Below, piece after piece: positions 7,029 through 34,938 of a stretch of DNA of 64,000 nt. The stretch is from assembly GCF_026000775.1 (NCBI RefSeq), contig NZ_AP026830.1, positions 1,077,056-1,141,055 on the forward strand, written 5' to 3'. The stretch comes from Vulcanisaeta souniana JCM 11219 (GTDB lineage: Archaea; Thermoproteota; Thermoprotei; Thermoproteales; Thermocladiaceae). Position numbers and translations under genes: made by a program. The first letter of the stretch is position 1, and each line of letters opens with the position of its first letter. Below the pieces are notes generated by a model. The model was not told where the DNA came from. It made no database searches and saw only the letters and a program-made list of their open reading frames with translations.

Positions 7029-7874
7029 ATGTCTTTTCGTGATGAGTTTTTGCGTTTGTTGAGGGAGGATGAGGAGTTTAGGCTGGCCGTGATGGGTCTA
7101 CTTGGTATTGTTGACATTCAATCATCACTAAGGCAGTTGGTGAGTGCCGTTAATGATTTGATTAGGACTGTTCAGAGGCTTGTGGAGGGTCAGGAGAGGC
7201 TTTGGGATGGTCAAAATAAACTATGGGAGGAGAATAGGAAAATGTGGGAGGCCATTAAGGCATTGCAGGAGGGGCAGAACGCCCTAAGAACAGACGTGAA
7301 TAGGCTCTGGGAGAATCAAAACAAACTCTGGGAAACCGTCAAGGCATTGCAGGAGGGTCAAAACGCCCTCAGAGCCGACGTAAACAAACTATGGGAGGAG
7401 AACAAGAAAATCAATGAAAACATAGAAAAACTATGGCAAGAAAACAACAAAATGTGGAAAGAAATAAGGAGCATTAGGATTGAGCTTTCTGGTGTTTCTA
7501 GGACTGTTGGTGCTTTGGTTGAGCGTGATGTTAGGCACTACCTGCCTAGTTGGGTTAGGGAGAGGTTTGGTGTCAATGTTGATAGGCTTAGGAGGGCTAG
7601 GATTGAGGGCATTGGTGAGTTTGATGGTTATGCGGAGGTTGATAATAAGGTGGTGGCCGTTGAGATTAAGGCAACACTTAGGCTTAGGGATGTCGAGGAC
7701 TTTGTGGATAAGGTGAGTAGGTTAAGGAGTGCTAAGGTTGGTAGGGAGGTTATCGCCGTCGTAGCCTATGCTAATGAGACCAGAGACACGGGCAAGGCCG
7801 TAGAGCTTGCGAGGACCAATGGCATTAAGGTTGTTAAGCACCATGGCGAGGATGACTTCGAGGAGCTCACCTAG
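7029..7874 (+). CDS. coiled-coil protein with C-terminal PD-(D/E)XK-like domain (DUF3782-type)
   Basis: 281 residues; TATA-like CTTTTATTTAG lies about 27 nt before the ATG. The first ~45 residues (LLREDEEFRLAVMGLLGI, then DIQSSLRQL) are nearly the same as those of the protein at 22254-23801. Residues ~55-150 are an unbroken heptad array of units such as KLWEENR, ALQEGQN and ALRADVN. The C-terminal ~120 residues contain GEFDGYAEVDNKVVAVEIKA, matching the D...ExK core of PD-(D/E)XK nucleases. The family is common in Thermoproteales and has no established role; nuclease activity is inferred. Confidence 0.75.
   Translation: MSFRDEFLRLLREDEEFRLAVMGLLGIVDIQSSLRQLVSAVNDLIRTVQRLVEGQERLWDGQNKLWEENRKMWEAIKALQEGQNALRTDVNRLWENQNKLWETVKALQEGQNALRADVNKLWEENKKINENIEKLWQENNKMWKEIRSIRIELSGVSRTVGALVERDVRHYLPSWVRERFGVNVDRLRRARIEGIGEFDGYAEVDNKVVAVEIKATLRLRDVEDFVDKVSRLRSAKVGREVIAVVAYANETRDTGKAVELARTNGIKVVKHHGEDDFEELT
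7257..7424 (+). repeat. 84-bp tandem coding repeat (two copies)
   Basis: Two consecutive 84-bp units start at 7257 and 7341 (both begin AAGGCATTGCAGGAGGG). They encode four heptads each, so duplication keeps the coiled-coil register. The second copy is more diverged at its 3' end. Confidence 0.8.
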
Positions 7875-17613: not shown

Positions 17614-18129
17614 ATGAGTACTGTGGTTGTTGATGTGCCGAGGACGCTTTATGAGGAGGCTGTGAGGAGGGGTCTCAATGTTGAGGAGTTGTTAATAACA
17701 ACGTTGATTAAGGTGTTGAACCTGGACCCTGAGGTGGCTGTTAGGGCTAGGCTTGAGTTGGCGGTTAAGTACCTGAACGAGGGTAGGGATTTAATAGATA
17801 AGGACCCCGTGCAGGCCAGCGAGGAGCTCTATAAGGCGGCTGAGGAGGTTGTTAAGGCCTTGGCTATGCATTACGACTTGAGGGACGTGTTGGCAAGGGT
17901 TGAGGGTAGGGGTAGGTGGACAGTCACTGACTTGGCTAGGGCTGTGGCGTCGATAGCCGATAGGTTGGGTAAGTGGTTTGAGGGAGCTTGGGATGCCGCG
18001 AATTACCTACACGTCTGGGGGTTTCATGAGGCAAAGCTGGACAGTGAGTTGGTTAGGAGGAGATTGCCGGACATAGAGAGGATGGTTCAGGAGGCCCAGA
18101 AGGTAGTAATTAACGAGGGACGGGCCTGA
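17614..18129 (+). CDS. PaREP1-family protein
   Basis: 171 residues. A short N-terminal strand-helix (MSTVVVDVPRTLYEEAVRRG) precedes the PaREP1 core: ARLELAVKYLNEGRDLIDKD, PVQASEELYKAAEEVVKALA, then WTVTDLARAVASIADRLGKW and AANYLHVWGFHEAKLD. PaREP1 (Pyrobaculum aerophilum repeat family 1) proteins are multi-copy in Thermoproteales. They are helical and HEPN-like, but their role is not settled. The next gene, 87 nt downstream, has a related composition but its own promoter. Confidence 0.85.
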   Translation: MSTVVVDVPRTLYEEAVRRGLNVEELLITTLIKVLNLDPEVAVRARLELAVKYLNEGRDLIDKDPVQASEELYKAAEEVVKALAMHYDLRDVLARVEGRGRWTVTDLARAVASIADRLGKWFEGAWDAANYLHVWGFHEAKLDSELVRRRLPDIERMVQEAQKVVINEGRA

Positions 18130-18216: not shown

Positions 18217-18768
18217 GTGGATGCGGAAGTCCTTGAAAGGCCCTTGCCTAGGCCGACTGCGGAGGATTACATCAATGCGAGGATTTTGGAGTCGTTAATC
18301 GAGGCTAGGCTCTCCCTCGAGTTTCTGGGTAGGGGTTTGGTTAGGAATTCTGCCGGCAAGGCCTTTCAGGCATGGAGGGCGTTTTTAGCCGCGTTACTGA
18401 GGCTTGAACTTAACAAATTACTCCAAGCGGTTAAGACCGATGAGGAGAGGCGATGGCTCATGGAGAGGGCAGTCCCTAGGGTACCAACCACGAGGATGAA
18501 GGCACTATCACAAATGCTCGAGAAAGTTGGTTATGGAGTGTTATCTGCATGGACCGACAAGGCACTGAACCTACACGACTACCAATACAACGGGCCAGAC
18601 CCAGACATGGCAATGAGCAAGTACAGGAATAGGGGTGAGGCCGCGGTAGATGTGAAACTGCTCATAGGGGAGTTAATTAGGCGCATTGAGGAGTTAAAGG
18701 CAAGGGTAAAATGGACCGATGAGCTCGAGAACGCATTGATGGAGCTAAAGAGAGAACTTGGATCTTAG
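18217..18768 (+). CDS. PaREP1/HEPN-like helical protein
   Basis: 183 residues from GTG 18217; AGTATTTAAGG at about 18185-18195 lies 27 nt upstream, so a leaderless GTG start fits. Key segments are RPLPRPTAEDYINARILESLIEA, RNSAGKAFQAWRAFLAALLR and HDYQYNGPDPDMAMSKY. This pattern recurs in Thermoproteales proteins labelled PaREP1 and resembles HEPN four-helix bundles. No catalytic RX4-6H is obvious. The 3' end overlaps the microprotein gene on the other strand by 24 nt. Confidence 0.7.
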   Translation: MDAEVLERPLPRPTAEDYINARILESLIEARLSLEFLGRGLVRNSAGKAFQAWRAFLAALLRLELNKLLQAVKTDEERRWLMERAVPRVPTTRMKALSQMLEKVGYGVLSAWTDKALNLHDYQYNGPDPDMAMSKYRNRGEAAVDVKLLIGELIRRIEELKARVKWTDELENALMELKRELGS

Positions 18769-19130: not shown

Positions 19131-20147
19131 CTAGGCCGTGATGCCTAATAGCCTGAGTGTTGTGGCTAGGGCTTCCCTGTGTATGGGTGTTTGCCATGCG
19201 TAGAACCTTCCCACTCCGATTTCCTGGTTTGGGTTGATGGGACTTCCCGACAGTGTTGCCCAGTCCTTGTATATTATGTAGTTCTCCCTAATCAGTAGTT
19301 CCCTGAGTTCCGTGGTCCCTGGGTCTCCGTAGAATGTGTCCACGTCGTTGATGGCCATCCTCAATGGGTTTACTAAGCCCCTTGCCTTGATCGTGTCCAT
19401 TAATAGCACGGCGCGCCTCACGTAGTCGTTGAGCATGGCCCTCAAATCCCAGTTATACCTATTGGCTAGTTCCATGGCCTTGCCTGGGTTACCTCCCAGG
19501 AGTCTCCAGGCCTCCTCAACGTCGAAGCCTCTCGGTGGGTTTAAGGCGTTGAGTAGTTCCATGAAGGGCTCCCTATCGAGGTTCCACAGGAGGGCTGCGT
19601 GGCCATGCCTATGCCTAGTCACTGAGCCTAGGCTCTCGCCCTCTGAGGTCGCGACCACGAAGTTTATCGCCCTGGGCCCATACTCACTGCTTAGCTTATT
19701 CATTAACTCGAAGAGCCACTTAACGTACCACTCAACCCTGTCCATGCCGACGGCCCTAACCACGTCATCCACAACCACCAGTACGTAATTACCCCTAAGC
19801 CTCTGCCTACCCACGGCCCTCTCCAGCACGTCAGCTATGGCCCTGGCCAGTGAGGGCCCAACACCAAGCACCCCATTGATTACGTCCCTAATTGCATCAA
19901 TCATTAATGACAGGCCCGGCGGCGTAAGCACTGCCTTCTCAATCGAACCCATCTCCAAGGCATCGATGTACACCGCAACGGCGTCACCCCCAAAGTACTC
20001 CCTGAACCTCCTCACGAATTCCTTGAGGAGCCTCGTCTTACCGCAACCCTCCGGTCCATAGACGTAGAGTGGCACGTACCTAAACCTGGAAACCCAACCC
20101 CTCAACCAACCCAGCTCCGAAACCCTATCAACGAAGAGAGGCTCCAT
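19131..20147 (-). CDS. STAND/archaeal AAA-type ATPase
   Basis: 338 residues from ATG 20147 (MEPLFVDRVSELGWLRGWV). The frame runs 14 codons further, but CTTTTAAAAG at 20172-20181 lies 29 nt before 20147. Walker A is VYGPEGCGKTRLL, Walker B VLVVVDDVV, and a sensor-like VVATSEGESLGSV follows. The C-terminal half is helical and ends with IGVGRFYAWQTPIHREAL. It is paralogous to the divergent gene at 20272 along its whole length. Function unknown; a signalling or defence ATPase is plausible. Confidence 0.8.
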   Translation of the reverse strand: MEPLFVDRVSELGWLRGWVSRFRYVPLYVYGPEGCGKTRLLKEFVRRFREYFGGDAVAVYIDALEMGSIEKAVLTPPGLSLMIDAIRDVINGVLGVGPSLARAIADVLERAVGRQRLRGNYVLVVVDDVVRAVGMDRVEWYVKWLFELMNKLSSEYGPRAINFVVATSEGESLGSVTRHRHGHAALLWNLDREPFMELLNALNPPRGFDVEEAWRLLGGNPGKAMELANRYNWDLRAMLNDYVRRAVLLMDTIKARGLVNPLRMAINDVDTFYGDPGTTELRELLIRENYIIYKDWATLSGSPINPNQEIGVGRFYAWQTPIHREALATTLRLLGITA

Positions 20148-20271
20148 TAAGCAATGAAGACAATAACCAACTTTTAAAAGCACTGCCATGCCACGCTGTA
20201 GCCTTTATTGATGGGCTCCTTGACAATGCGGTAGGGTATTTATAAGTCCTGCATTAGTTTCAGTGGGATTC

Positions 20272-21276
20272 ATGAAGAGGGTTAAACTCAGCTTTGCTGG
20301 TTTGCAGGTGGAATTCGTTGATAGGGACCTCGCCCTTAAACTCATTGAGGAATGGGCTGGGAGAGGTACTGGGCTTCCGAGGGTCATTTATGGTCCTGAG
20401 GGTTGTGGTAAGACTGCCTGGCTAATGCAGTCTGTGGTGTTACTTAGGGAGCTTGGTTTTGAGGTTATTTACGTTAATCCTGTCAATAGATTTGCCATTG
20501 CCGAGATAGGGGTTGCCAGTCTTAGGGATGAGTTCTTTAGGCTTGTTAGGGAGGCGATTAGCCAAAGTGCGTTGGCTAGAATTGCCTGGATAGCCTATAA
20601 CGTGGCTTATGACGTGATCAAGGCAACGAGAGGAAGAATAGCCGTAATCGTCGATGACGCGTTTCAGGTAATCGGTATTAAAGAGTCCGCATTGTATGTG
20701 AAAGCTCTGCTCAACCTCATTGAGTATCCTCCAGAGCACTACGAGAAAATAGTCACGATAGCCGCAACCAGCGAGGGCGTCAGCTTGAGGGAGATTGGTA
20801 GGCACTCGTGGTCTGACACGGCGCCCATCTGGAACATGGCGAGGGAAGGCTTCAGGCAATTATACGATCAATTACCAGGTAACAAGCCACCATTCGAGGA
20901 GGTCTGGAGACTGACGGGTGGAAACCCAAGAATACTCGAGAGGCTTTACATGAGGAATTGGGGTACGAACGAGGTCATAAACAGCCTCATCAAGGAGAAG
21001 GGGCTATCACCCGACTTCGTTAGGAGGTGGGCGAGCCACCTTAGGGAGGCTGTCAATGATCCGGATTACCTGTGGTTCAACGCACCCGGGGAATTGATCA
21101 ATGAGTTGGTCGAAAGAAACCTCATCATCCACTTCCTACCCAAGAGAAGCCCAAACCAATGGATAGACCAACCACCACCAGAAAAGGATGAGAAACTCGG
21201 AATCGGCAAGTACGTAGCCTGGCAAACACCAATACACAGAGAAACCGTGAGAAAGGCACTGGAGGAATCTACGTAA
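20272..21276 (+). CDS. STAND/archaeal AAA-type ATPase, paralogue of neighbour
   Basis: 334 residues from ATG 20272 (GTG 20263 possible); TATTTATAAG lies about 28 nt upstream. Walker A is IYGPEGCGKTAWL, Walker B IAVIVDDAF, then AATSEGVSLREIGRH and the shared ending LGIGKYVAWQTPIHRETV. It aligns end to end with the protein at 19131-20147, and the two are transcribed head to head. The right copy of the palindromic direct repeat begins about 50 nt after the stop. Confidence 0.8.
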   Translation: MKRVKLSFAGLQVEFVDRDLALKLIEEWAGRGTGLPRVIYGPEGCGKTAWLMQSVVLLRELGFEVIYVNPVNRFAIAEIGVASLRDEFFRLVREAISQSALARIAWIAYNVAYDVIKATRGRIAVIVDDAFQVIGIKESALYVKALLNLIEYPPEHYEKIVTIAATSEGVSLREIGRHSWSDTAPIWNMAREGFRQLYDQLPGNKPPFEEVWRLTGGNPRILERLYMRNWGTNEVINSLIKEKGLSPDFVRRWASHLREAVNDPDYLWFNAPGELINELVERNLIIHFLPKRSPNQWIDQPPPEKDEKLGIGKYVAWQTPIHRETVRKALEEST

Positions 21277-21468: not shown

Positions 21469-22257
21469 TTAGGGGCTCATGTGCCTTTCCAAGTGGTTTA
21501 GGTACTCATTGATGTTCAGGAGTTCTAGGTACCTCCTCCATAGGTAGTTCATGGCCTCCTCCTCATCGCCGTGGATTACCACGCCATCATTAATTACGGA
21601 GTATAGGATCCCGGCGCCGGCGCTCTCCAGGTGGACCACGTCTATTAGGTCCTCATTCACGCCCAGGGTCTCGGCAATATCCACTATTAACTCGCCGAGC
21701 TCGATTGCGCTTCTGAGATCTGCGGAAATGGCGATGTCGTAGTCCCTACCAACCCCTGCCCTGGCCCTCGAACCGAAGAGTAGGGCGAACCTCACGCCAT
21801 GCCTCTCGAAAACGGGCTTCAACCTAGCCCTCAACTCCTCAATGTCCATCTGCCCTGAGTCTCCAGTGCCGCTTATGAAGTTCCTGAGCCTCTCGATTAT
21901 TAAGGGTAGCCTTTCCTCCATATCCCTAAAGGCCTCTTCCTCAAGTTCCCTATTAATCTCGGCATACCCATGAACTAGCACATTCCTAAAACCGGCGAGC
22001 CCCCTAAGGAATTTCCTAAGATCCTCGTCTAGGCCTAACTTATTAGATAGGTAATCAGCAATGTCTCTGTACGTCTCGGGTTTCCTGTCCCTGAGTTCGA
22101 CAGCCAGCATCGCGCCTAAATCCAACAGGGCCTGTATTGTTAATTGGGTTAGCCTCTCAACCGCGTAAATACTCCCACCACCCCTGCGCATAGCCCTGAA
22201 TTCATCGAAGTACCTACTCAGTGAGTCGAGGATTCTCCTCAGCCTCATGACCATCAT
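21469..22257 (-). CDS. single-chain HEPN (HepT-like)-MNT nucleotidyltransferase fusion
   Basis: 262 residues with two domains. Residues ~1-130 form a HepT/DUF86-type HEPN bundle with an exact RX4HXY ribonuclease motif (Arg91, His96, Tyr98 in GFRNVLVHGYAE). Residues ~140-230 are a minimal nucleotidyltransferase: LLFGSRARAGVGRDYDIAIS gives GS at 162-163 and Asp172/Asp174. In two-gene systems MntA AMPylates the Tyr of HepT and silences it; here both lie in one chain, so self-modification is possible (inference). ATGA overlap with the upstream coiled-coil gene shows translational coupling. Confidence 0.85.
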   Translation of the reverse strand: MMVMRLRRILDSLSRYFDEFRAMRRGGGSIYAVERLTQLTIQALLDLGAMLAVELRDRKPETYRDIADYLSNKLGLDEDLRKFLRGLAGFRNVLVHGYAEINRELEEEAFRDMEERLPLIIERLRNFISGTGDSGQMDIEELRARLKPVFERHGVRFALLFGSRARAGVGRDYDIAISADLRSAIELGELIVDIAETLGVNEDLIDVVHLESAGAGILYSVINDGVVIHGDEEEAMNYLWRRYLELLNINEYLNHLERHMSP

Positions 22258-23801
22258 GCCTGCCGTCTCGTTAGTTCCTCGGGATAGACAATCCTTATTC
22301 CTAGGGAGTTGGCGAGTTCGGTCACTGCCTTCTCATCCCTCTCCCCAATGAAGTAGGTCACTAGGTACCTGGCGTCGAGCCTCCTGCCAGTGACCCTCTC
22401 GTAGAGTTCAATAATGCGTTTAAACACCACGACATCACCCCTACTCACTGAGGACTTGATCTCCACGGCTAAGGCCTTGTCATCCTTGACCACCACGTCC
22501 AGGTCCACGACGCTTGAGTAGCCAAAGACGTAGCCCTCAGAGTCATTATAACTCCACTTCTCAACCCTATAACCAGCACCACTGAGCAGCTCCTCGACAG
22601 TCCTCCTAAACGCATCCTCACTAAGCACGCCCCACCTGGCGCCAATAGCCGACAACTTCCTATCAAGCCTATCATACCTCTCCCACAGCCTGTCCTGACC
22701 CTCACGCAACCTAGTCTCCTCCTCCCTCAAGGCCTTAATTTCCTGCCAAATCCTATTATTCTCCTCGAGAAGTTTGTTTTGCACCTCCCTCAGTGCACTA
22801 ATTTCCTGCCATATCTTCTCTATGTTCTCGTTTATTTTCCTTATCTCCTGCCATATCTTGTTGTTTTCCTCCCACAGCTTATTTACGTCGGTTCTTAAAC
22901 CCTCATAACCCTCACGCAGAGCCTTAATCTCTTGCCAAATCTTATTATTCTCCTCAAGGAGTTTATTCTGCGCCTCCCTCAATGCCCTGACCTCCTGCCA
23001 CAATTTATTGTTCTCCTCCCATAGTTTATTGACGTCCACCCTCACCGCCTCATAACCCTCCCTAAGCGCCTTAACCTCCTCCCAAAGTTTTTCCTGACTC
23101 TCACGTAGGGCCTTCACCTCCTGCCACAACCTATTATTCTCCTCAAGCAACTTACTCTCCACCTCCTTAAGCGCATTGACCTCCCTCCAAATCCTCTCCT
23201 GCTCGTCAGCCAGCCTCTTGATTTCCTGCAGTAGGCCTGCCTGGTTCTCAGTCAGCTTCCTTATCTCAGCCAACACGTTGTTTTGGCCCTCCTGTAGCGC
23301 CTTGACCTGCTCCTGAAGACTCTTCACCTCCTGCCAGAGCCTTCCCTGGGACTCCAGGGACTGCCTGAGTAGGTCGAGTATCTTCCCCTCACCATCAATC
23401 AACTGCTTGACCGCGTCCCAGGTAACCCTCTGCACGTCGGCCAACTGCCTAATGGTGTTGCCCAGCTCCTCTTGTCCCTTGGCCAAGCGCTCAACCATGT
23501 CAATGGTCCTGCTCAGGGTTTCCGCTAGGTCCATGATCATCTCATTGATTTTAGCCAGCATGTCAGTGACCTTACCAAGCATCTCCGTTAACCTGGCCTC
23601 ACCCTCGGCAACACCCTGCAATGCATTCACCGATTTTGACTGAGCCTCAGTGAGCCTATTAACGGCGCTTATTAACTGCCTAAGGGAGGACTGAATGTCA
23701 GTAATACCCAGTAGGCCCATCACGGCTAGCCTGAACTCCTCATCCTCCCTAAGAAGCCTAAGCAACTCATCCTTACTAACCCTATTAGCCTGCCCACCCA
23801 C
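22254..23801 (-). CDS. long coiled-coil protein with PD-(D/E)XK nuclease-like domain (DUF3782-type)
   Basis: 515 residues from GTG 23801 (MGGQANRVSKDELLRLLRED); CTTATATTTAAC lies about 25 nt upstream. An N-terminal module (~15-60) is shared with the protein at 7029. Residues ~140-385 are a very long, in-register heptad array (KLWEENN, KLWQEVR, ALREAQN). The C-terminal ~120 residues carry VVDLDVVVKDDKALAVEIKSS, a D...ExK site at about 433-449. It may be a filament-like sensor with a nuclease head; activity is unproven. It is the first gene of an operon with the HEPN-MNT fusion. Confidence 0.8.
   Translation of the reverse strand: MGGQANRVSKDELLRLLREDEEFRLAVMGLLGITDIQSSLRQLISAVNRLTEAQSKSVNALQGVAEGEARLTEMLGKVTDMLAKINEMIMDLAETLSRTIDMVERLAKGQEELGNTIRQLADVQRVTWDAVKQLIDGEGKILDLLRQSLESQGRLWQEVKSLQEQVKALQEGQNNVLAEIRKLTENQAGLLQEIKRLADEQERIWREVNALKEVESKLLEENNRLWQEVKALRESQEKLWEEVKALREGYEAVRVDVNKLWEENNKLWQEVRALREAQNKLLEENNKIWQEIKALREGYEGLRTDVNKLWEENNKIWQEIRKINENIEKIWQEISALREVQNKLLEENNRIWQEIKALREEETRLREGQDRLWERYDRLDRKLSAIGARWGVLSEDAFRRTVEELLSGAGYRVEKWSYNDSEGYVFGYSSVVDLDVVVKDDKALAVEIKSSVSRGDVVVFKRIIELYERVTGRRLDARYLVTYFIGERDEKAVTELANSLGIRIVYPEELTRRQA
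22740..23100 (-). repeat. 147-bp (seven-heptad) coding repeats
   Basis: Within the coiled-coil gene, the unit starting KLWEENN recurs exactly 49 residues apart (DNA copies about 22866 and 23013 on the plus strand, differing by 147 bp). Unit length is a multiple of seven residues, so repeats keep the coiled-coil phase. Confidence 0.75.
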
Positions 23802-23925
23802 TGTTTTACTAATTCATGGAGTTAAATATAAGGTTGTTGGATCGGGCGAGGAGGAAGGAAGAGGAGGGAAAGGATTTGAGGGAAAAATTTTGAGGTTTTA
23901 AAGGCGATTTATGTATTTAGGGCGA

Positions 23926-26900
23926 TTACTTCGGCGGGCCCAATAGACCAGCTAACCTCTTCCTCCTCCAGTTGCTGTACTCAATCAGCAGTATCACTAT
24001 CAGTATCACCACTATTATTATCACAACAGCCAGCAGTATGAATGTACTCGTCGGCACAAAGCCAACACCGGGTATGTAGTAACCACTCACCGGTATCGTC
24101 AGTGTCTGCGTCATTGTCTGCCCAGCCTGACTACTCGACAAAGTCACCGTGGTGCTAGCGCTCTTTCCATAGCTATAACCAGTCACTGTACACGTTATTG
24201 AACCGCTGCTCGGTATTGGAACTGTCACTGTCTGCGAACCAACACCGCTGGCCACTGGCACAGCACCGCTTGGTGTCTGGCATGTGACATTCACAGTAGC
24301 CTCATTCGTCAATGGAGCACCACTGGCACTCACTGGGGTAACTGTTAACTCAACAGCCGGTACTGACACCTGTATTGGCGTCGTTGCGTTACTGCTTGTT
24401 ACGTAGTAGGTGTAGGTGTAGCCCAGTGGTATGCCCTTCCACGACTGCACTGACACAGTTACCTGGGCCGCAAACGGTGATATTGGTACCACGAATGTGC
24501 TGGTTGATACTTGGCCTTGGGCATTCGTTGTTGCGGTCGTGGATGGAATTGCTGTGGCTGTCGTGCACGTGCTTGGTGATGGCACTAGCGGCGATACTGT
24601 GTATGTATAGCCAACAATTGTTAATGCTGGTGACACACTGGATATGGTCACTGGGCACTCTGGTTCGGATACACTGTAGCTTAGTGTAACGCCCGGCGCT
24701 GGGCCGAAGCTTGATAGTACAACCACTATGTTTGCCGTGGTCAGTACATTGCTTAGTGTGAAGGATTCAACGGCCTCCGTCGCAGTCACAGTCCTCTGTA
24801 TACTGAAGGTATTCTCAAACACAGGCACCAACTTAAGCGATGCTCCACTGCTTATTGCCTGCTGTATATCCTGCCACGTCAGCGGTGTACCATTAGCTGC
24901 GTAGTACACAACTACGTAGTAGTTGGTTGGCGGTAATTGACTTGTGGCTGGTGGGTATATCCTGTAGTCAACCGGAGTTATTGAACCGTCAGTACCAGTA
25001 ACATTGAAGCCTAGGAATTCATTACCCATTGTTGGCTGGTCAAACACAACAACCAGGGCGCCAGGTATTCCAGTACCAGCAGCATTCTTTAGGTACACAG
25101 TGGCGGGTACGACGTGTGTCTCAACAGTAGCTGTTGCTGTTGCATTACCCAGCGTCTGTACATCGGTGAGTATGCTTGTGTCGTATATGTTGATGTATGG
25201 GTAGGCGCCATTTGTTATTGTGTAGAGCAGGCAGCTGTCGTACCAGTACACAACAGTCCTGCTGTTGGCTGGCAATGGCTGTAGTAATTGACCATTAACA
25301 CCACTGAAGTCAATAGCTATCGATCCAGTGCCCGCGCACAGTACTGGCGTTGTGCTCGTGCCGTAGGAGACAATCATCTGGTTGGGTAGCGGCCTACCAT
25401 CCCAATCCTCAATTGACGCTAGCGGTATTGTTGGGTAAGTGAACACCATCTTAGCCTCAGTATCACTACTCGCACTCGGCAGTAAGTCTGGCGCTGATGA
25501 AACACCAACATAACCAGCAATATCCCACTTACCACTGACTGGGTATGCCTCATGGTCATACAGTATTGCCTGAGCACCAACTATTGAACTTGAGTAGTTG
25601 TAATACGACTCATAATACACACTACTCCTGGCACTCTCACCAAACTGCGGTATCGTCACCGTCGTATTCACATTATCTAATTCACTGCCTGCGTATAGCG
25701 TTGTGAAGTTAATTGTTGGTGACTGTAGTGGAGCCTCCAGTTGGCTTATGTTGTAGGTGTGTGTTCCAATACTTACCTGGCCATTCGGGTACACTGTGAA
25801 GTTCAGTGGCATGCCGTTGGCTAGGTAGAAGGTGGCGTTAGGCGGTGTGTAGTAGAATGTTGCTGATAGGTCCGGTATGTATGGCGTGTAGTTGCCTAGG
25901 TCACACCACGTTGATGCGAACTCATAGCTACTACCATAAATATACTGGGCAGGTATCTCAGCAAGCATTCCTGGAGCAATCTCAGTGGTTGGTACGCTCA
26001 GTGGGTAGTTGCTGCCTGCTGATGAGTATGTGAAGCCTGTCACGAATATTGGGAACGAGGCGTTGTTGTATATGTCGACGCTCTCCAGGGCAATCGTCCT
26101 AATGTTATACACGCCATTGGCCGGCATAGTGCTCAGAGTCACATTCCACAGGTCCTCTGGGAATAGTGTGTCATTCCTTAGCATTGGGGCTGATGTACCG
26201 CCTGTACCAGCGCCAATCGCGGTCATGTACAGCGAGCCGCTGCTTGATACTGTGCCAAGCGGTAATTCACCGGTATTCACTGCTGATGCTCCCTGCTCAG
26301 GCGTTATGTAATTCAGCAACACGTAGCTACTTATTGCCAGCTCAGGCAGTGGTGATGGGGACGTCGGTGTGTACTGGCTTGGCTTTATCACTGCGGTTAT
26401 GCTTCCATAACCAATGTTCTGCGTAACTAGGTAACTACCGCTTGATGCGCCCATCACCCAGAACCTTGCAATCCTCGTACCATAGGCACCGGTTGTCGGT
26501 GCCCACCATGGTAAGTCAAACACAGCCTCACCACTGCTTGGCACTGGTATCACAACAGTCAGTGGACTGCCGAAGTACGGGTACCACTCGGCATTAGGTG
26601 ATGGGTATGAGAACGTTATGCTCATTGTGCCCGTGCCGGTCGAGTTGGTGTACAGATTCTCGGTGTAGTAGCTTATTGTACCGCCGAAACCGCTGCTCAG
26701 TACTGGGTACTGCACGTGCACGTGATCAGCAGCCGCTGCCGGTGGTAGTATGTATAGTGAACCGCTGCCGTAGATGTAGAGCACCACTGCGACTTGCTGC
26801 ACATTCTCCACTGCATTCTCTATTGCGGCAACATTCAGTGGTAGGTATAGCGGTATTGTCCTTGTCATTGCCTCCTGGAATGTTGATGTCTCATTAGTGC

Positions 26901-29900
26901 TATAGACGAAGTACCAGCCGGTGGCGTTGGCAGCGTACACGCCTATTGTTGCGTTGGTTATTGAGGTCATTCCAGTGGCGTTTATGTAGGCCTCCCACAG
27001 CCTGTAGCTGGCTATGTTGTGCGTTACTATGTTGTGCGTTATGTAGTACGTGAAGTTCAGCACCGAGTAGTACTTCTGTGAAACCTCCACCGCATACGTC
27101 GTTGGGCTAATGCCACTTAGCTGCATAGCCTGTACTGAGGCTGATGGTAATGTTCCATTAAGCAGGACATAGGTTGGCGCTAGTAATGACTCGTTAATCA
27201 AAAGCCTATACTCACTGTAGGAGGCACTTGGCGCGTATAGGAATGTGTCGTTCGGGTAGGCAGTGGTCGTTGTGCCCAGTGTTGTTGAATACGTCGGTAT
27301 GCCCATTGTCAGGTTGAAGACTACGGCGGACGGCGTTGCACTGAATACGTTCGGGTAGATACTAGTCATGTATAGTGGTGTTAGGCTTGTTATTGGTGAG
27401 CTGGAATTGACGAAGAAGCCCATTAGGTTTGGCAGTACGTAACCAGCCATTGAGTAGACGTTATTGACGGGCTCATAGCCAGGGACTGTCCTTGGGTTGT
27501 AGTCAACGGTTGTTGTGCCGTAGGTCTCGACCATTGCGTAGGTGCCGTTGTTCATTATTGCGTAGATGTCACTCGGCATTAGTATTCCTGAGCCAGTCAC
27601 GTTGAATGGGTATAGTATGTTGCTTATGTAGTTCTGGGCTACCGATGTGCCTAGTGATGTTCCTGGCATTACGTACTCCCTGTAGAGCACGTCTGTGAAT
27701 GTTAGGCCTAGGTAGGTGTTGCCCACTGGGTATAGTCCGCTCTTGCTGGTTATGTTGAAGGTGACTGGGTATACGCTGGTCTCAATGACTATGCTGCCTG
27801 GCGGTACCGAGACTGCCTTACCGCCTTCATAGACTGTATAGCTTGTTACGTACTGTACCTGCCCGCTTGGCGTTACCACGGCTATTTCATTGGGTTGTGG
27901 TACAGGGACTAGCTGGTTGAATACCTCCTGGCCTAGGTAGTAGACCTTCATTGGGAATACTTGGCCTGGCATGAATAGCCTCACGAATATGGTGCCCTCG
28001 TGAGGCGCTATTGATGGGAAGCTGAATACGGCGTATGGCGATGCAGTGCTGTAGTTGGCCAGTGTGGCGGCTAGTATGTAGTAGCTGTAGTTGCCCGTGT
28101 ACCACATTGCGTACTGCTGCAGGCTTATTGAACCGCTCTGGTACTCGGACTGGGCGGTGCTCATTAATGACTCGAACTCGCTCTCTATACCCCTGTACAC
28201 AGGTTGCATCCAGGTCTGTCCAACAACCCTGAAGTCAGTTAGGTTGTCGTAGAATTTGAAGGCAGGTGTTGTTGTTTCCCACTGGCTGGCTAGGTCATAT
28301 GGGCTGTACTGGTCAGCGAGCACCAGGGTCACGTTGTAGTAGAAGCTTGGGCAGTAGCTTGGTGTTGCGCATGGGTAGACTGGCTGGCTACTCAACACAT
28401 TGCCCTTCAGGTCAGTCACGTATACATTCAGTGTTTCAACAGGCACGGTTACTGGAAATACCTGACCACACACAGCTGTTGTCGGCACTGATAGTGGCTC
28501 GTAGTATATCGTCAAGTTTTCGTCAAACGGACCCCTGGTACCCAGTGTGTATGCGTAGTACCCACTTGGTATGTTCAAATCGCTTGCGTACTGGCTATAG
28601 GTCTGCCCGTATGTGGTTGATACTGAGGCGTAGGAGTAGGCGCTGTCCGTGGATGGGCTTATCGTCCTCACCTTAAGCATTACGTATGCCTTACCCTGCG
28701 GCTGTATGTAGCTGGCGTTGAGTGGCACGTTCATCACATACACGAAACCACTCGAGTTGGTTATTGCGTGCCACATTTCGAAGGTTCCGTTGTAGTTGTA
28801 GACGCTCACTGCGAAGCCCCACAGTGGGTAGGCCGGTGTTGTGTTGCTCTGAACCTCCACATTAATATCGATGAGCGGGAAGTAAACAGTACTGATAATT
28901 CCTGGTGTCAGTACGTAGTTGTACTCAGGCTGCCTACTGGTGTAGTTGACACTTGGCATTGTGTAGCCGTAGTAGTTTAGCGTGAAGTTGAATATGGGTG
29001 ACATGGCCACTATGTACGGTACGCCAGACAATGAGGATATCTTTAGGCCTATTGGTGATGTTATCTTCATTATGTAGGCCGATGAACTCAGTGTAACCGG
29101 TGTTAGTGTTATTGACGCACCGCTTGGTGTCATTTCACTGACGTAAACCGTGCCAGAGGTTATTGTCTCATTGCACAGGTTGAGGAATTGCACGTTATAG
29201 ACTGTGTACGTGGCGGCTATAAATGCCCTCTCCACCGTGACGTTGGCAAACACTATGGTACCTGCACTTGGATTTACACCAGTTGGTGTTGTGACCGCTA
29301 GTTCACCAGCACTTCCATAGAACTGCGCCAGCGTTGCATTACTGCCATACACCGGCTGGAATATTGGTACCTCGGGTGTCGTGAACTTGTATTGTTCATT
29401 GAAGATCCCTGGGGAGCCTGTGACGTTGTAACCAACCTCGTAAACTCCGTAGCCAACCGTCATCCCATTGTATGTAAGCCAGAAGCTGTAGTAGTAGTAC
29501 TGGGCACCCGTCGTGTAGTTACTTGCTGTTAAACCAACATTACCACTCCTTGCAGTTATTGATGCAGTGAGTGGTGGCGCTGGGAACCAATTGACCTCAG
29601 GCGTTACTAGTATACCGGCTATTGATGACTCCTCAAACGGCGGGAACTGGGCTATTGTGGCCGGGTAGTAGGTTCCGTACGTGGTCTCGTTAGTCCACAC
29701 CTGCTCCTCATAGTACAGCATTCCTGACTCTGCACCACTTGGTGGTGATTGCTGTATTATTGGTGACTGAGAGGAGAACATGTAGTAGGCGGTTATGTAA
29801 GGCACTTGGTTGGGGCTAAGAGGTAGCTGCTGCGTTGCGTTAGTACCTGCCGCAAACTGGGTTATGTTTATGAAGACCGGCATTAACGCCACCGTTACGT

Positions 29901-31485
29901 TATTTATCCTGACGCTGGTTACTCCACTCACGGATAGTGTTGCCGTGAACACAGGCTGATTCTCATAGAATATGTAGAGCTCTGGCGTTGGGAACCCGGT
30001 CTGTGTTAACTTCGGTGTTCCAGCAAGTCCGGTGGATGTTGGTGCGCCTGTGAAGTAGCCCACCGGCACTAATGCGGGTGTTGATTCATAGTACAGTAGG
30101 TAGTTCTCGCTAACCACAGTGGCGGTTGGCGTTGTTGAGAGTAACCACTTGACGTAGAGCTTCTCGGCAAGTATTGGGTTGGGTATGGACGTGGCATTAC
30201 GAATTATTAAATTACCCTTCAGATCAGTGACATTACCAAGGTAGAACTCCACAACAGGCACGCCAACGAGTAGCGCTGGGTCAACGCCAGTTGCATTACA
30301 TAGTGCCGATAAATAAATAAATGTTCCAGAGTACCAATCATATGCTTGAGCAGCATTGAATGACTCTGGTGTTGTACCTGCATTAACCGTTGCGGTTGTG
30401 TAATTAAACAGCACCACCGACTGGCCACTTGGGTATACGTCGCTAACGGTTATGACTATTGGCTGGGCAGTGACGCTTGGGTAGTTGTGGTCTTTCGTAT
30501 TTAAGCCACTGAATTCGTTGGTTACGTAGTATATTGGGCCGAAGCCCGTATAAATACTCTGTAATGCGGTTGATACCGTGCTGTTGTACGTGGTTGGTCC
30601 AAATACCGTAACACCAGTGCCCAGGGTCACCGAGGCCTCCAGCTGTGGTGATGGAGGTAATGATGATGGCTTTACTGACGCACTAGTGGTTGCTCCAACG
30701 TATAGGAAGAAGAAGTAGAGGTCTGGTAGAACAACGTATAAGTCACTCGGTGTTGTCTCAGCGCCATGGACCGGCCTGAACAATGGGTATTCATATGCCG
30801 TCACATATGTACCGTTTGGTAGTTCGTATTTCACGGTTGATGTAACAGCGGGTATTAGGCTCTCTTTTATTGTTGGTGATACCGGTATGTAACTGCTGGT
30901 GCTGACTGTTGTTAGGTTGTTCATTAGGTGCTGTAGGTCCATGAATGTTGATGTTACGTTGAGGACCATCCAGTTGGCTCCTCCGTAGCCGTTTAGGACT
31001 ATTGCTATTGTCCAGTTGGCGTAGACCTGGTTTGGTTGTATTCCGTTGGTTAGTGTTGTGCTTACGGTCCAGGTCACGCCACCAGTTGAGTTGGCTGTGG
31101 CGGTTGCCGTCATTTCAATTGGTGAGTAAAGCGTAAACCCAGTACCATTCCAGTAGTAGACGTCGCTTGCATTGGCTATGTATATGCTGAAGGACTTACC
31201 GGCTGTGAAGTACCAGGGAACCATATGGTCAATTAAGCTGGTATAGCAAGCTGATGGGCATGTTGGTGTTACTCCGTACTCAAGTCTTGCGTCTGTTAGG
31301 TTCCAGTACATTGTGTAGGTGTAGGTCTTTGGCGGTATTGGTACTGATACTGGTCCGTAGGGTCCGTATGTTACCTGTGCCAGGGCTAGGTGCCCCAGTC
31401 CGGCAACTACTCCTATTACTAGTAGTAGTGTTACTACCGGTAGTATTGTTTTTGTTATTTTCCAGTTGGTTTTGGTCCTAGTCAT
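23926..31485 (-). CDS. giant 2519-residue membrane-anchored surface protein, S-layer/adhesin candidate
   Basis: The longest gene in the window. It has an N-terminal signal helix (about 11-36, ILPVVTLLLVIGVVAGLGHL), about 2400 extracellular residues rich in Thr, Ser, Tyr, Val and Pro with very many NxS/T sequons and almost no charged residues, and a C-terminal membrane helix (~2475-2500) ending WRRKRLAGLLGPPK. Only a few Cys are present. The last ~150 residues match the small protein at 1905. TTATAAAC at 31507-31515 lies 26 nt before the ATG. The composition fits an S-layer or long surface-fibre protein; no catalytic domain was recognised. Confidence 0.8.
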   Translation of the reverse strand: MTRTKTNWKITKTILPVVTLLLVIGVVAGLGHLALAQVTYGPYGPVSVPIPPKTYTYTMYWNLTDARLEYGVTPTCPSACYTSLIDHMVPWYFTAGKSFSIYIANASDVYYWNGTGFTLYSPIEMTATATANSTGGVTWTVSTTLTNGIQPNQVYANWTIAIVLNGYGGANWMVLNVTSTFMDLQHLMNNLTTVSTSSYIPVSPTIKESLIPAVTSTVKYELPNGTYVTAYEYPLFRPVHGAETTPSDLYVVLPDLYFFFLYVGATTSASVKPSSLPPSPQLEASVTLGTGVTVFGPTTYNSTVSTALQSIYTGFGPIYYVTNEFSGLNTKDHNYPSVTAQPIVITVSDVYPSGQSVVLFNYTTATVNAGTTPESFNAAQAYDWYSGTFIYLSALCNATGVDPALLVGVPVVEFYLGNVTDLKGNLIIRNATSIPNPILAEKLYVKWLLSTTPTATVVSENYLLYYESTPALVPVGYFTGAPTSTGLAGTPKLTQTGFPTPELYIFYENQPVFTATLSVSGVTSVRINNVTVALMPVFINITQFAAGTNATQQLPLSPNQVPYITAYYMFSSQSPIIQQSPPSGAESGMLYYEEQVWTNETTYGTYYPATIAQFPPFEESSIAGILVTPEVNWFPAPPLTASITARSGNVGLTASNYTTGAQYYYYSFWLTYNGMTVGYGVYEVGYNVTGSPGIFNEQYKFTTPEVPIFQPVYGSNATLAQFYGSAGELAVTTPTGVNPSAGTIVFANVTVERAFIAATYTVYNVQFLNLCNETITSGTVYVSEMTPSGASITLTPVTLSSSAYIMKITSPIGLKISSLSGVPYIVAMSPIFNFTLNYYGYTMPSVNYTSRQPEYNYVLTPGIISTVYFPLIDINVEVQSNTTPAYPLWGFAVSVYNYNGTFEMWHAITNSSGFVYVMNVPLNASYIQPQGKAYVMLKVRTISPSTDSAYSYASVSTTYGQTYSQYASDLNIPSGYYAYTLGTRGPFDENLTIYYEPLSVPTTAVCGQVFPVTVPVETLNVYVTDLKGNVLSSQPVYPCATPSYCPSFYYNVTLVLADQYSPYDLASQWETTTPAFKFYDNLTDFRVVGQTWMQPVYRGIESEFESLMSTAQSEYQSGSISLQQYAMWYTGNYSYYILAATLANYSTASPYAVFSFPSIAPHEGTIFVRLFMPGQVFPMKVYYLGQEVFNQLVPVPQPNEIAVVTPSGQVQYVTSYTVYEGGKAVSVPPGSIVIETSVYPVTFNITSKSGLYPVGNTYLGLTFTDVLYREYVMPGTSLGTSVAQNYISNILYPFNVTGSGILMPSDIYAIMNNGTYAMVETYGTTTVDYNPRTVPGYEPVNNVYSMAGYVLPNLMGFFVNSSSPITSLTPLYMTSIYPNVFSATPSAVVFNLTMGIPTYSTTLGTTTTAYPNDTFLYAPSASYSEYRLLINESLLAPTYVLLNGTLPSASVQAMQLSGISPTTYAVEVSQKYYSVLNFTYYITHNIVTHNIASYRLWEAYINATGMTSITNATIGVYAANATGWYFVYSTNETSTFQEAMTRTIPLYLPLNVAAIENAVENVQQVAVVLYIYGSGSLYILPPAAAADHVHVQYPVLSSGFGGTISYYTENLYTNSTGTGTMSITFSYPSPNAEWYPYFGSPLTVVIPVPSSGEAVFDLPWWAPTTGAYGTRIARFWVMGASSGSYLVTQNIGYGSITAVIKPSQYTPTSPSPLPELAISSYVLLNYITPEQGASAVNTGELPLGTVSSSGSLYMTAIGAGTGGTSAPMLRNDTLFPEDLWNVTLSTMPANGVYNIRTIALESVDIYNNASFPIFVTGFTYSSAGSNYPLSVPTTEIAPGMLAEIPAQYIYGSSYEFASTWCDLGNYTPYIPDLSATFYYTPPNATFYLANGMPLNFTVYPNGQVSIGTHTYNISQLEAPLQSPTINFTTLYAGSELDNVNTTVTIPQFGESARSSVYYESYYNYSSSIVGAQAILYDHEAYPVSGKWDIAGYVGVSSAPDLLPSASSDTEAKMVFTYPTIPLASIEDWDGRPLPNQMIVSYGTSTTPVLCAGTGSIAIDFSGVNGQLLQPLPANSRTVVYWYDSCLLYTITNGAYPYINIYDTSILTDVQTLGNATATATVETHVVPATVYLKNAAGTGIPGALVVVFDQPTMGNEFLGFNVTGTDGSITPVDYRIYPPATSQLPPTNYYVVVYYAANGTPLTWQDIQQAISSGASLKLVPVFENTFSIQRTVTATEAVESFTLSNVLTTANIVVVLSSFGPAPGVTLSYSVSEPECPVTISSVSPALTIVGYTYTVSPLVPSPSTCTTATAIPSTTATTNAQGQVSTSTFVVPISPFAAQVTVSVQSWKGIPLGYTYTYYVTSSNATTPIQVSVPAVELTVTPVSASGAPLTNEATVNVTCQTPSGAVPVASGVGSQTVTVPIPSSGSITCTVTGYSYGKSASTTVTLSSSQAGQTMTQTLTIPVSGYYIPGVGFVPTSTFILLAVVIIIVVILIVILLIEYSNWRRKRLAGLLGPPK

Positions 31486-33603: not shown

Positions 33604-33861
33604 ATGTACGGCGTGGAGTTCTCGTAAAAGGCCAAGAGGTCGCTAAGGAACCTTCCAAATGATGTGCGCGATGGAATCCTCAATAGGATTAATGAATTAG
33701 CTAGCAACCCTGTTTGCGAGAAGGGACTTAAAGGAAGGCTTCAGGGGTTGTGCAGGGCAAGGGTTGGTGACTACAGGATAATATACTCAATAGATCACGA
33801 GCACCGCATTATAAGGATAATCGACGTTGGTAAACGGGAGAATATCTATGAAAGACTATGA
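33604..33861 (+). pseudogene. RelE/ParE-family toxin with a premature stop
   Basis: Reading from ATG 33604 gives MYGVEFS, TAA (33625-33627), then in the same frame KAKRSLRNLPNDVRDGILNR, INELASNP, LKGRLQGL, VGDYRIIYSID, IIRIIDVGKRENIYERL. The two sides join into a full-length RelE-type protein in which family members commonly have Lys at the stop position (TAA versus AAA). It looks like a single nonsense mutation in a toxin. A GTG at 33664 could start a truncated 65-residue product lacking the first helix. The 3' end overlaps the convergent ATPase by 6 nt. Confidence 0.8.
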
Positions 33862-34938
33862 GCGCGTGAAGTACCTGGCCCTAAGCACTGCGTACCTAAC
33901 TATTGGGTCTGGAATGCCGTACCAATCACCATCCTTGGTCAGGAACCCCATTTTGACCAGGTTGTTTAGGTCCCTAGAGAGAGTTGCATTGGTTGGCCTC
34001 TCACCCATCCTAGCCATTAGGTACTTCATGACGTCACTCCACCTGGCCTTACCGAGTACGGCGACCGCCTCCATTATGTACCGGTAGTACTGGCTCCTCG
34101 AGAATAACTCCTCAAGCTCAGACCTAACTAGGTTGGCGCCAATCTCCTTAACCTCATTGATTGCATCCTCACCCCTCTCAGGATAGAGCCTACCAAAGTA
34201 TACAAGCCAGCCGGCAATACCGCCCAGCTCATCGACGGCCCTCTCAATGACCCTATCATCAACGTTAATGCCTAACTCCCTGAATCCCCTCCTAAGGAAC
34301 TCAATGGATCTCTCCCTATCGAATGGCCTAAGCTCAATAACATGGTAATACCTACCATAGAGCCCGGATGATGGGTCGTCAAGGCCCAGGAAGTCGTGTA
34401 AGAGACCAACCTCATTACCCGTGAGTACTAGGGTTATGTTCCTCAGGTGGTCATAGGCGTATGCCAGTAATGGTCTGAGACCGATCGTTGAGTATCTGAG
34501 GTACTGGGCCTCGTCGAAGACGAGCACCACGTGCTTACCGGCATTATTAATCGCCTCAAGGATCTTTGCAATCCCATCCCTAATCCTCGAGGCGCTAAGT
34601 CTAAACCTAATGGGGCCAAGGGATACGTCAATCTCGTCAATGATCCTCCTAACCCCCTCCCAAAAACTGAGGTTGCCCAGTGACATCCTTAACTCATTGT
34701 ATATCCTCTCCGCGGGCACCTTCCTCGAGACATTATCATAAAGCTTCCTAACGTCGATGAATACGTAGTCAATGCCCAGGGAATTAAGTACTGAAAGCAC
34801 GAGGCTTGACTTACCGACCCTCCTAATCCCAAGCACAAGGACCAACCGCTCATTAAGGCCGCTCCTAAATCTCTCTATCTCTGCCTCCCTGTCAAAGAGC
34901 TCGTCCAGTGAGGTCTTGGGCTCAGTGCTGAAGAGCAA
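33856..34938 (-). CDS. archaeal ATPase (PF01637-type) with C-terminal winged helix
   Basis: 360 residues from TTG 34938, with a strong ribosome site GGGGGTGAT just upstream. It opens LDELFDREAEIERFRSGL, then Walker A VLGIRRVGKSSLVLS, Walker B VVLVFDEAQYLR and a sensor-like LVLTGNEVGLLHDFLG. The C-terminal ~75 residues (WSDVMKYLMARMGERPTNAT, LSRDLNNLVKMGFL) form a winged helix. Such archaeal ATPases are common in accessory regions and have no fixed role. A duplicated 11-bp motif lies in its 5' region. Confidence 0.85.
   Translation of the reverse strand: MLFSTEPKTSLDELFDREAEIERFRSGLNERLVLVLGIRRVGKSSLVLSVLNSLGIDYVFIDVRKLYDNVSRKVPAERIYNELRMSLGNLSFWEGVRRIIDEIDVSLGPIRFRLSASRIRDGIAKILEAINNAGKHVVLVFDEAQYLRYSTIGLRPLLAYAYDHLRNITLVLTGNEVGLLHDFLGLDDPSSGLYGRYYHVIELRPFDRERSIEFLRRGFRELGINVDDRVIERAVDELGGIAGWLVYFGRLYPERGEDAINEVKEIGANLVRSELEELFSRSQYYRYIMEAVAVLGKARWSDVMKYLMARMGERPTNATLSRDLNNLVKMGFLTKDGDWYGIPDPIVRYAVLRARYFTRS

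Follow-up and report, generated by a model that had tools for sequence, protein, structure and literature searches.

A 64-kb stretch of a complete 2.43-Mb Vulcanisaeta genome (hereafter the window) carries a two-gene operon, in which a coiled-coil protein ending in a PD-(D/E)XK nuclease domain (P0002) is followed by a single polypeptide bearing both a HEPN and an MNT domain (P0001). What is new here is this pairing, special to Vulcanisaeta, of a single-chain type VII-like toxin-antitoxin with a DUF3782 nuclease. The earlier note on this DNA had proposed a candidate undescribed system, which goes too far, since both halves belong to known families (DUF3782/PDDEXK_10 and HEPN-MNT fusions) and no general linkage between them was seen. 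In the preferred reading, to which we give a probability of just under one half (about 0.48), P0001 would be silenced by AMPylation of its own Tyr98 and, co-expressed with the rod-shaped P0002 nuclease, would form a cassette that acts in two steps against foreign DNA, damage or stress. The operon and its parts are as follows.

22254..23801, minus strand: P0002, coiled-coil PD-(D/E)XK protein of 515 aa with a GTG start, DUF3782 and PDDEXK_10, first gene of the operon (ORF, Pfam, purifying selection).
21469..22257, minus strand: P0001, HEPN-MNT fusion protein of 262 aa, second gene of the operon (ORF, Pfam, NCBIfam, orthologue alignment, Foldseek).
22254..22257, minus strand: ATGA stop/start overlap of P0002 and P0001, a coupling element of 4 bp.
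23823..23834, minus strand: TATA-like element ACCTTATATTTA, about 22-33 nt 5' of the P0002 start codon (alignment), a putative promoter.
23352..23801, minus strand: HEAD1, N-terminal alpha-helical head of P0002, aa 1-150, of which aa 10-51 are common to several other coiled-coil nuclease genes (sequence comparison).
22647..23351, minus strand: heptad rod of P0002, aa 151-385 (periodicity, DNA repeats, length comparison).
22257..22646, minus strand: TIP1, PD-(D/E)XK nuclease tip of P0002 with ExK (VEIKSS) (Pfam, alignment, AF2, fold match).
21868..22257, minus strand: HepT-type HEPN domain of P0001, aa 1-130 (HepT-like PF01934, 6.9e-18; NF047751, 62.0 bits).
21964..21987, minus strand: RX4HXY motif R91-NVLV-H96-G-Y98, predicted RNase site and AMPylation residue Tyr98 (exact match; orthologue alignment).
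21508..21843, minus strand: MntA-type minimal nucleotidyltransferase domain of P0001, aa 139-250 (Polbeta PF18765, 1.2e-10).
21736..21774, minus strand: GS-X8-DYD nucleotidyltransferase motif, G162 S163 ... D172 D174 (orthologue alignments).

The gene coordinates, minus strand and ATGA overlap were exactly as the earlier note had given them, and its domain calls were borne out by PF01934 and PF18765 on P0001 and by PF12644 and PF07788 on P0002. The two genes share one conserved promoter-like element upstream of P0002; its core, ACCTTATATT, is kept in an alignment of 6 Vulcanisaeta genomes, the remaining upstream sequence being less conserved, and its position appears to fit the promoter of a leaderless archaeal transcript. 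Since P0002 has a TATA-like element of its own, the operon is probably independent of the giant gene upstream. Both genes are under purifying selection, with dN/dS of 0.10-0.17 across three complete genomes (G000, G008 and G004). The following genes lie around the operon.

23926-31485, minus strand: giant gene for a surface-type protein of 2519 aa with a C-terminal transmembrane segment (ORF).
17614-18129 and 18217-18768, plus strand: two PaREP1/8 genes (domain match).
19131-20189 (minus strand), 20263-21276 (plus strand) and 33856-34938 (minus strand): three archaeal ATPase_2 genes (domain match).

The giant gene, whose product gave no match in a Pfam scan, lies directly upstream of the operon in all genomes with P0002. 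Domain matches among the scanned neighbour genes were to archaeal ATPase_2, HAD, PaREP1 and S4. ATPase_2 copies also adjoin HEPN-MNT genes in two further genomes, G009 and G019 (L061, L079).

P0002 exceeded the gathering cut-offs of both DUF3782 (PF12644; 2.1e-22, 79.5 bits against 24.4) and PDDEXK_10 (PF07788; 1.7e-22, 79.6 bits against 21.2) and has a PD-(D/E)XK fold with D...ExK, placing it in the DUF3782/PDDEXK_10 family (COG5493, the old DUF1626). This crenarchaeal family of coiled-coil endonucleases has been described (PMC1913061, PMC4786415), and in its literature no member with measured endonuclease activity was found. P0002 shares with the family the heptad stalk and the C-terminal PD-(D/E)XK domain with ExK, whereas its rod is unusually long, pure-heptad and Trp-rich, an HEPN-MNT partner lies downstream, and the beta-layer ATK[DE] motifs carried by some paralogues are absent. 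The catalytic Asp and Glu are invariant in 24 sequences, dN/dS for TIP1 is 0.10-0.15, and the AF2 model of TIP1 (pLDDT 80, pTM 0.75) has its best fold match in the PD-(D/E)XK enzyme EndoMS/NucS (probability 1.00, E 2.1e-3). The long in-register coiled coil and the variable rod noticed earlier were both confirmed. A single heptad register runs over approximately residues 141-386 (about 245 residues), hydrophobic periodicity peaks at 3.50, every Trp spacing is a multiple of 7 (7, 14, 21 or 49), DNA repeats of the rod are spaced in multiples of 63 nt, and orthologous rods differ in length between species by 42, 126 and 168 aa, each again a multiple of 7. Matches of P0002 to SMC, ZorA, JetC, COG3_N and similar models of Pfam, PADLOC and NCBIfam were dismissed as reflecting coiled-coil composition. 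A PADLOC hit to PDLC01085 ('C3a181, Diadenylate cyclase') covers aa 300-482 (E 3e-35); this region is DUF3782 plus PD-(D/E)XK, and the label looks wrong or borrowed from a neighbouring gene.

P0001 carries both HEPN and MNT active sites on one polypeptide, as had been read from the sequence: the RX4HXY motif is exact, with Tyr98 as its tyrosine, and the MNT domain has GS-X8-DYD together with a third Asp, D206. The curated HepT model NF047751 gave 62.0 bits, above its cut-off of 60, while with 45.5 bits the curated MntA model NF047752 stayed under its own cut-off, also 60. Compared with the canonical GSX10DXD, the MNT motif lacks two residues, and this GSX8DXD form typifies the P0001 subgroup. 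The shortening and the low MntA score count against the preferred reading; since the DXD and the third Asp are present, the domain could still work like MntA. Residues R91, N92, H96, Y98, G162, S163, D172, D174 and D206 are invariant among 7 type-A orthologues of 37-90% identity, so that the catalytic motifs, on whose conservation the earlier note had let its proposal depend, have indeed been retained. Among 26 fused Thermoprotei proteins picked by similarity to P0001, RX4HXY is kept in 24, DXD in all and GS in 23, the other 3 having GG instead. The top Foldseek matches of the P0001 model were the HEPN/MNT toxin-antitoxin structures 7ae9, 7ae2, 7aer and 6m6u. With a pLDDT of 79 and a pTM of only 0.50, the placement of the two domains in this AF2 model, and hence the geometry of cis-AMPylation, is not reliable. 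A sequence search of P0001 against solved structures returned no match, and a profile search of the genome contigs with the HEPN-MNT alignment found nothing.

The nearest described systems are the type VII HepT/MntA modules (class I HEPN/MNT), for which the transfer of AMPs onto the RX4HXY tyrosine by a GSX10DXD MntA has been experimentally established in two-gene versions, including one from an archaeon (PMC7641770); the named cases are S. oneidensis SO_3166/SO_3165 and Thermococcus cleftensis CL1 (PMC7641770; structures 7ae9, 6m6u). P0001 resembles them in its HepT-family HEPN domain with RX4HXY, its MNT domain with catalytic DXD and third Asp, and the matching folds. It differs in being one 262-aa polypeptide in HEPN-MNT order rather than a two-gene module, in having GSX8DXD rather than GSX10DXD, and in being preceded by a nuclease gene. 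In the preferred reading, the HEPN domain would act as a metal-independent RNase via R91 and H96, and the MNT domain of the same chain, or of a homodimer partner, would move AMP from ATP onto Tyr98 beside the active site and thereby keep the HEPN domain silent. P0002 would be a rod-shaped endonuclease that multimerises through its heptad stalk and carries the nuclease tip on it, and both proteins would be made from a single promoter. As a first step the P0002 nuclease might cut DNA; as a second, once AMPylation failed or was reversed, the HEPN RNase might arrest growth, which would give the pair a role in defence.

The P0002-P0001 pair was found only in Vulcanisaeta, in 5 species and at one syntenic locus. 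The suggestion that it might be conserved in other Thermoproteales was not upheld, as the orthologous P0001-type fusions in Thermoproteales family f2 (4 intact and 3 broken; 37-41% identical to P0001) stand alone, without a nuclease partner. In four genomes (G000, G008, G004 and G003) the pair sits with the giant gene on one side and an ATPase_2 gene on the other; G002 has the pair and the giant gene, and no ATPase_2 gene was detected at this locus there. The frameshifted copies in G002, G003 and G009 were considered as pseudogenes, and this was mostly rejected because their neighbours are broken likewise (the giant gene in all three, the ATPase of G003, numerous flanking genes of G002), which makes sequencing error likely in G002 and G003; the HEPN-MNT gene of G009 is, besides its frameshift, strongly diverged. 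Several public Vulcanisaeta JCM draft assemblies (L241, L244, L238) show frequent frameshifts in unrelated genes, and pseudogene calls are unsafe there.

A general linkage between DUF3782 and HEPN/MNT genes looked promising at first and failed a within-locus control. This adjacency test covered 79 DUF3782 loci in other organisms and used genes in the same stretches as controls: HEPN/MNT genes lay within 1 kb of 7/80 DUF3782 genes and 21/396 control genes (p=0.29), or of 5/75 and 21/359 when Vulcanisaeta was left out (p=0.79). With adjacency at background, the two gene families are not generally coupled, and, taken together with the family f2 fusions, this means that functional coupling may be absent from the pair itself. 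One of the family f2 fusions, in G027, has an unrelated DUF3782 gene about 1 kb away, on the opposite strand and beyond a purM-like gene. Another locus (L188, 8804-9715 and 4844-5404) shows a reverse-order fusion, MNT then HEPN, with RX4HXY intact and close to a DUF3782 gene, which itself comes after a partial HEPN-MNT gene. A mobile-element origin was also set aside, since viral contigs yielded relatives of neither P0001 nor the nuclease tip, and matches in plasmids and phages were confined to a HEPN or an MNT domain alone; that no virus or plasmid link emerged also counts against the preferred reading.

These distributions bear most directly on the main rival, by which the HEPN-MNT protein is an independent, self-contained toxin-antitoxin, serving addiction or stress, that came by chance to stand after the nuclease gene in a single Vulcanisaeta lineage, with a shared transcript and separate mechanisms. 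This is almost equally likely and itself tentative. It would explain the stand-alone relatives in family f2 and the background adjacency elsewhere, and it agrees with a pair that represents one syntenic inheritance with no repeated gain, as well as with the two of three fused HEPN-MNT genes in this genome that have no nuclease neighbour. The 4-bp overlap and the lack of a promoter of its own before HEPN-MNT argue against it, as do the retention of the pair in 5 species and the loss or degradation of HEPN-MNT exactly where TIP1 has been lost.

This last point comes from a comparison of coiled-coil nuclease genes, in which the N-terminal 50-150 residues of P0002 turned up again on other coiled-coil proteins whose nuclease-like tips differ. 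One such gene lies in the window.

7029-7874, plus strand: P0003, second coiled-coil protein, 281 aa, with a Trp-rich heptad rod and TIP2 (PDDEXK_10 at only 13.6 bits).

The head of P0003 matches that of P0002 (86% over aa 10-51), while TIP2 is a different PD-(D/E)XK-like tip; the two genes are convergent and about 14 kb apart, an arrangement also present in G008, G002 and G004. A further gene at about 224.7 kb in the same genome (L235, 2144-3094, minus strand) matches P0003 at 95.7% DNA identity along 299 nt in head and rod and carries TIP3, unrelated to TIP2, which, judged from the DNA comparison, is recent domain exchange. In G009 the order is the giant gene, a HEAD1-rod-TIP2 gene whose protein is P0002-like up through the rod and P0003-like at the tip, an inverted interior of at least 5 genes relative to G004 (L238/L239, contig 3, about 40.5-57 kb, against L240), a displaced HEPN-MNT gene (43-46% identical, frameshifted), and then a G004-like right flank; TIP1 and HEAD2 are missing, that is, there is no reciprocal TIP1-rod-HEAD2 gene. 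This is what recombination between two inverted rods, followed by loss of the reciprocal product, would give. An inversion of about 14 kb between the two coiled-coil genes thus seems to have swapped tips in this one species, leaving HEPN-MNT as a diverged remnant. Ordinary recombination would need no more than the rod DNA common to both genes (78-87% identity, with exact words up to 32 bp in G008), and nothing points to programmed inversion. The HEAD1 gene of G005 is interrupted by a TGA, with neither TIP1 nor HEPN-MNT present.

In 5/5 Vulcanisaeta cases TIP1 comes with HEPN-MNT, and genomes that have lost TIP1 either lack HEPN-MNT or keep a diverged remnant of it, so that HEPN-MNT goes with TIP1 and not with HEAD1. 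This association suggests coupling, as the preferred reading requires, among few and related genomes. A broader scheme can be built on the same comparisons, in which Vulcanisaeta would hold a reservoir of nucleases with a conserved head and heptad rod and with interchangeable PD-(D/E)XK tips, swapped by recombination between in-register rods, including inversion of convergent genes, the one-chain HEPN-MNT protein being the cognate partner of TIP1. We regard this scheme as doubtful, although the rods do appear to serve as joints for exchanging nuclease ends between genes.

The earlier note had instead suggested the coiled-coil protein as a possible sensor of a trigger that turns on the HEPN toxin, making the pair a sensor and effector in defence. 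The operon, the variable rod length and the way HEPN-MNT follows the PDDEXK_10 tip lend some weight to this idea, while the restriction of the pair to Vulcanisaeta, the fusions that exist without a partner in other genera and the background adjacency weaken it. Moreover, the rod varies in length alone, in steps of complete heptads, and its dN/dS of 0.12-0.23 gives no hint of diversifying selection; the nuclease end, with its intact catalytic motif, is more effector-like than sensor-like. Such a sensor is therefore unlikely.

The fusion itself, which had been taken as a departure from the two-gene norm, is real and not exceptional: this genome has three, HEPN-MNT fusions with intact motifs are common in Thermoprotei, and fusions with the same domain pair in one chain were mentioned by Makarova 2009 (PMC2701414) and Anantharaman 2013 (PMC3710099). 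HEPN domains fused to MNT have been described as typically lacking the RX4-6H RNase motif and as having a substrate-binding role (PMC3710099), whereas the motif is intact in P0001 and in the 24 of 26 Thermoprotei fusions noted above, an exception worth recording. The MNT domain might accordingly be an effector that nucleotidylates RNA, protein or a small molecule, with HEPN binding the substrate as in kanamycin nucleotidyltransferase, and weak fold matches of the P0001 model to AAD(9) and ANT(3'')(9) point the same way. This is slightly less probable still than the sensor, given that RX4HXY is invariant in P0001 orthologues, that the best structural matches are toxin-antitoxin complexes, and that the HEPN-MNT order is opposite to that of KNTase-like proteins, where a HEPN domain without RX4-6H lies C-terminal to the nucleotidyltransferase.

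Two other published arrangements resemble the locus in part. HEPN-T(PaREP1/8) operons with MNT and REase (DUF1626) have been reported (PMC3710099, Table 1), and a HEPN/MNT/DUF1626-nuclease neighbourhood with PaREP1 genes nearby is found here too; unlike in those operons, the HEPN domain of P0001 is of the HepT/DUF86 type, fused to MNT and encoded immediately after the nuclease. CoCoNuTs (coiled-coil nuclease tandems, PMC11090510) likewise combine coiled coils with nucleases, some also with HEPN; the McrB-type GTPase that defines them, along with McrC and a coiled-coil nuclease, was not seen among the flanking genes scanned. Lastly, that P0002 is a structural rod tied to the upstream giant surface-type protein, with a vestigial nuclease motif, is very improbable: the giant gene is upstream in every genome with P0002 and the rods are long and in register, but the PD-(D/E)XK motif is kept under the low dN/dS of the tip, P0002 has its own promoter-like element, and the DUF3782 nuclease family mostly occurs without a giant-gene neighbour.

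If P0001 works as proposed, the toxin could not lose its AMPylating silencer independently, and what reverses HepT/MntA AMPylation could be addressed in one purified hyperthermophilic chain; P0001 would also contradict the published generalisation that HEPN is inactive in MNT fusions. The exchange of nuclease tips, if true, would give archaea a counterpart of polymorphic nuclease systems diversified by recombination, and would show how heptad repeats that run on without interruption allow nuclease families to be rebuilt with the fold intact.
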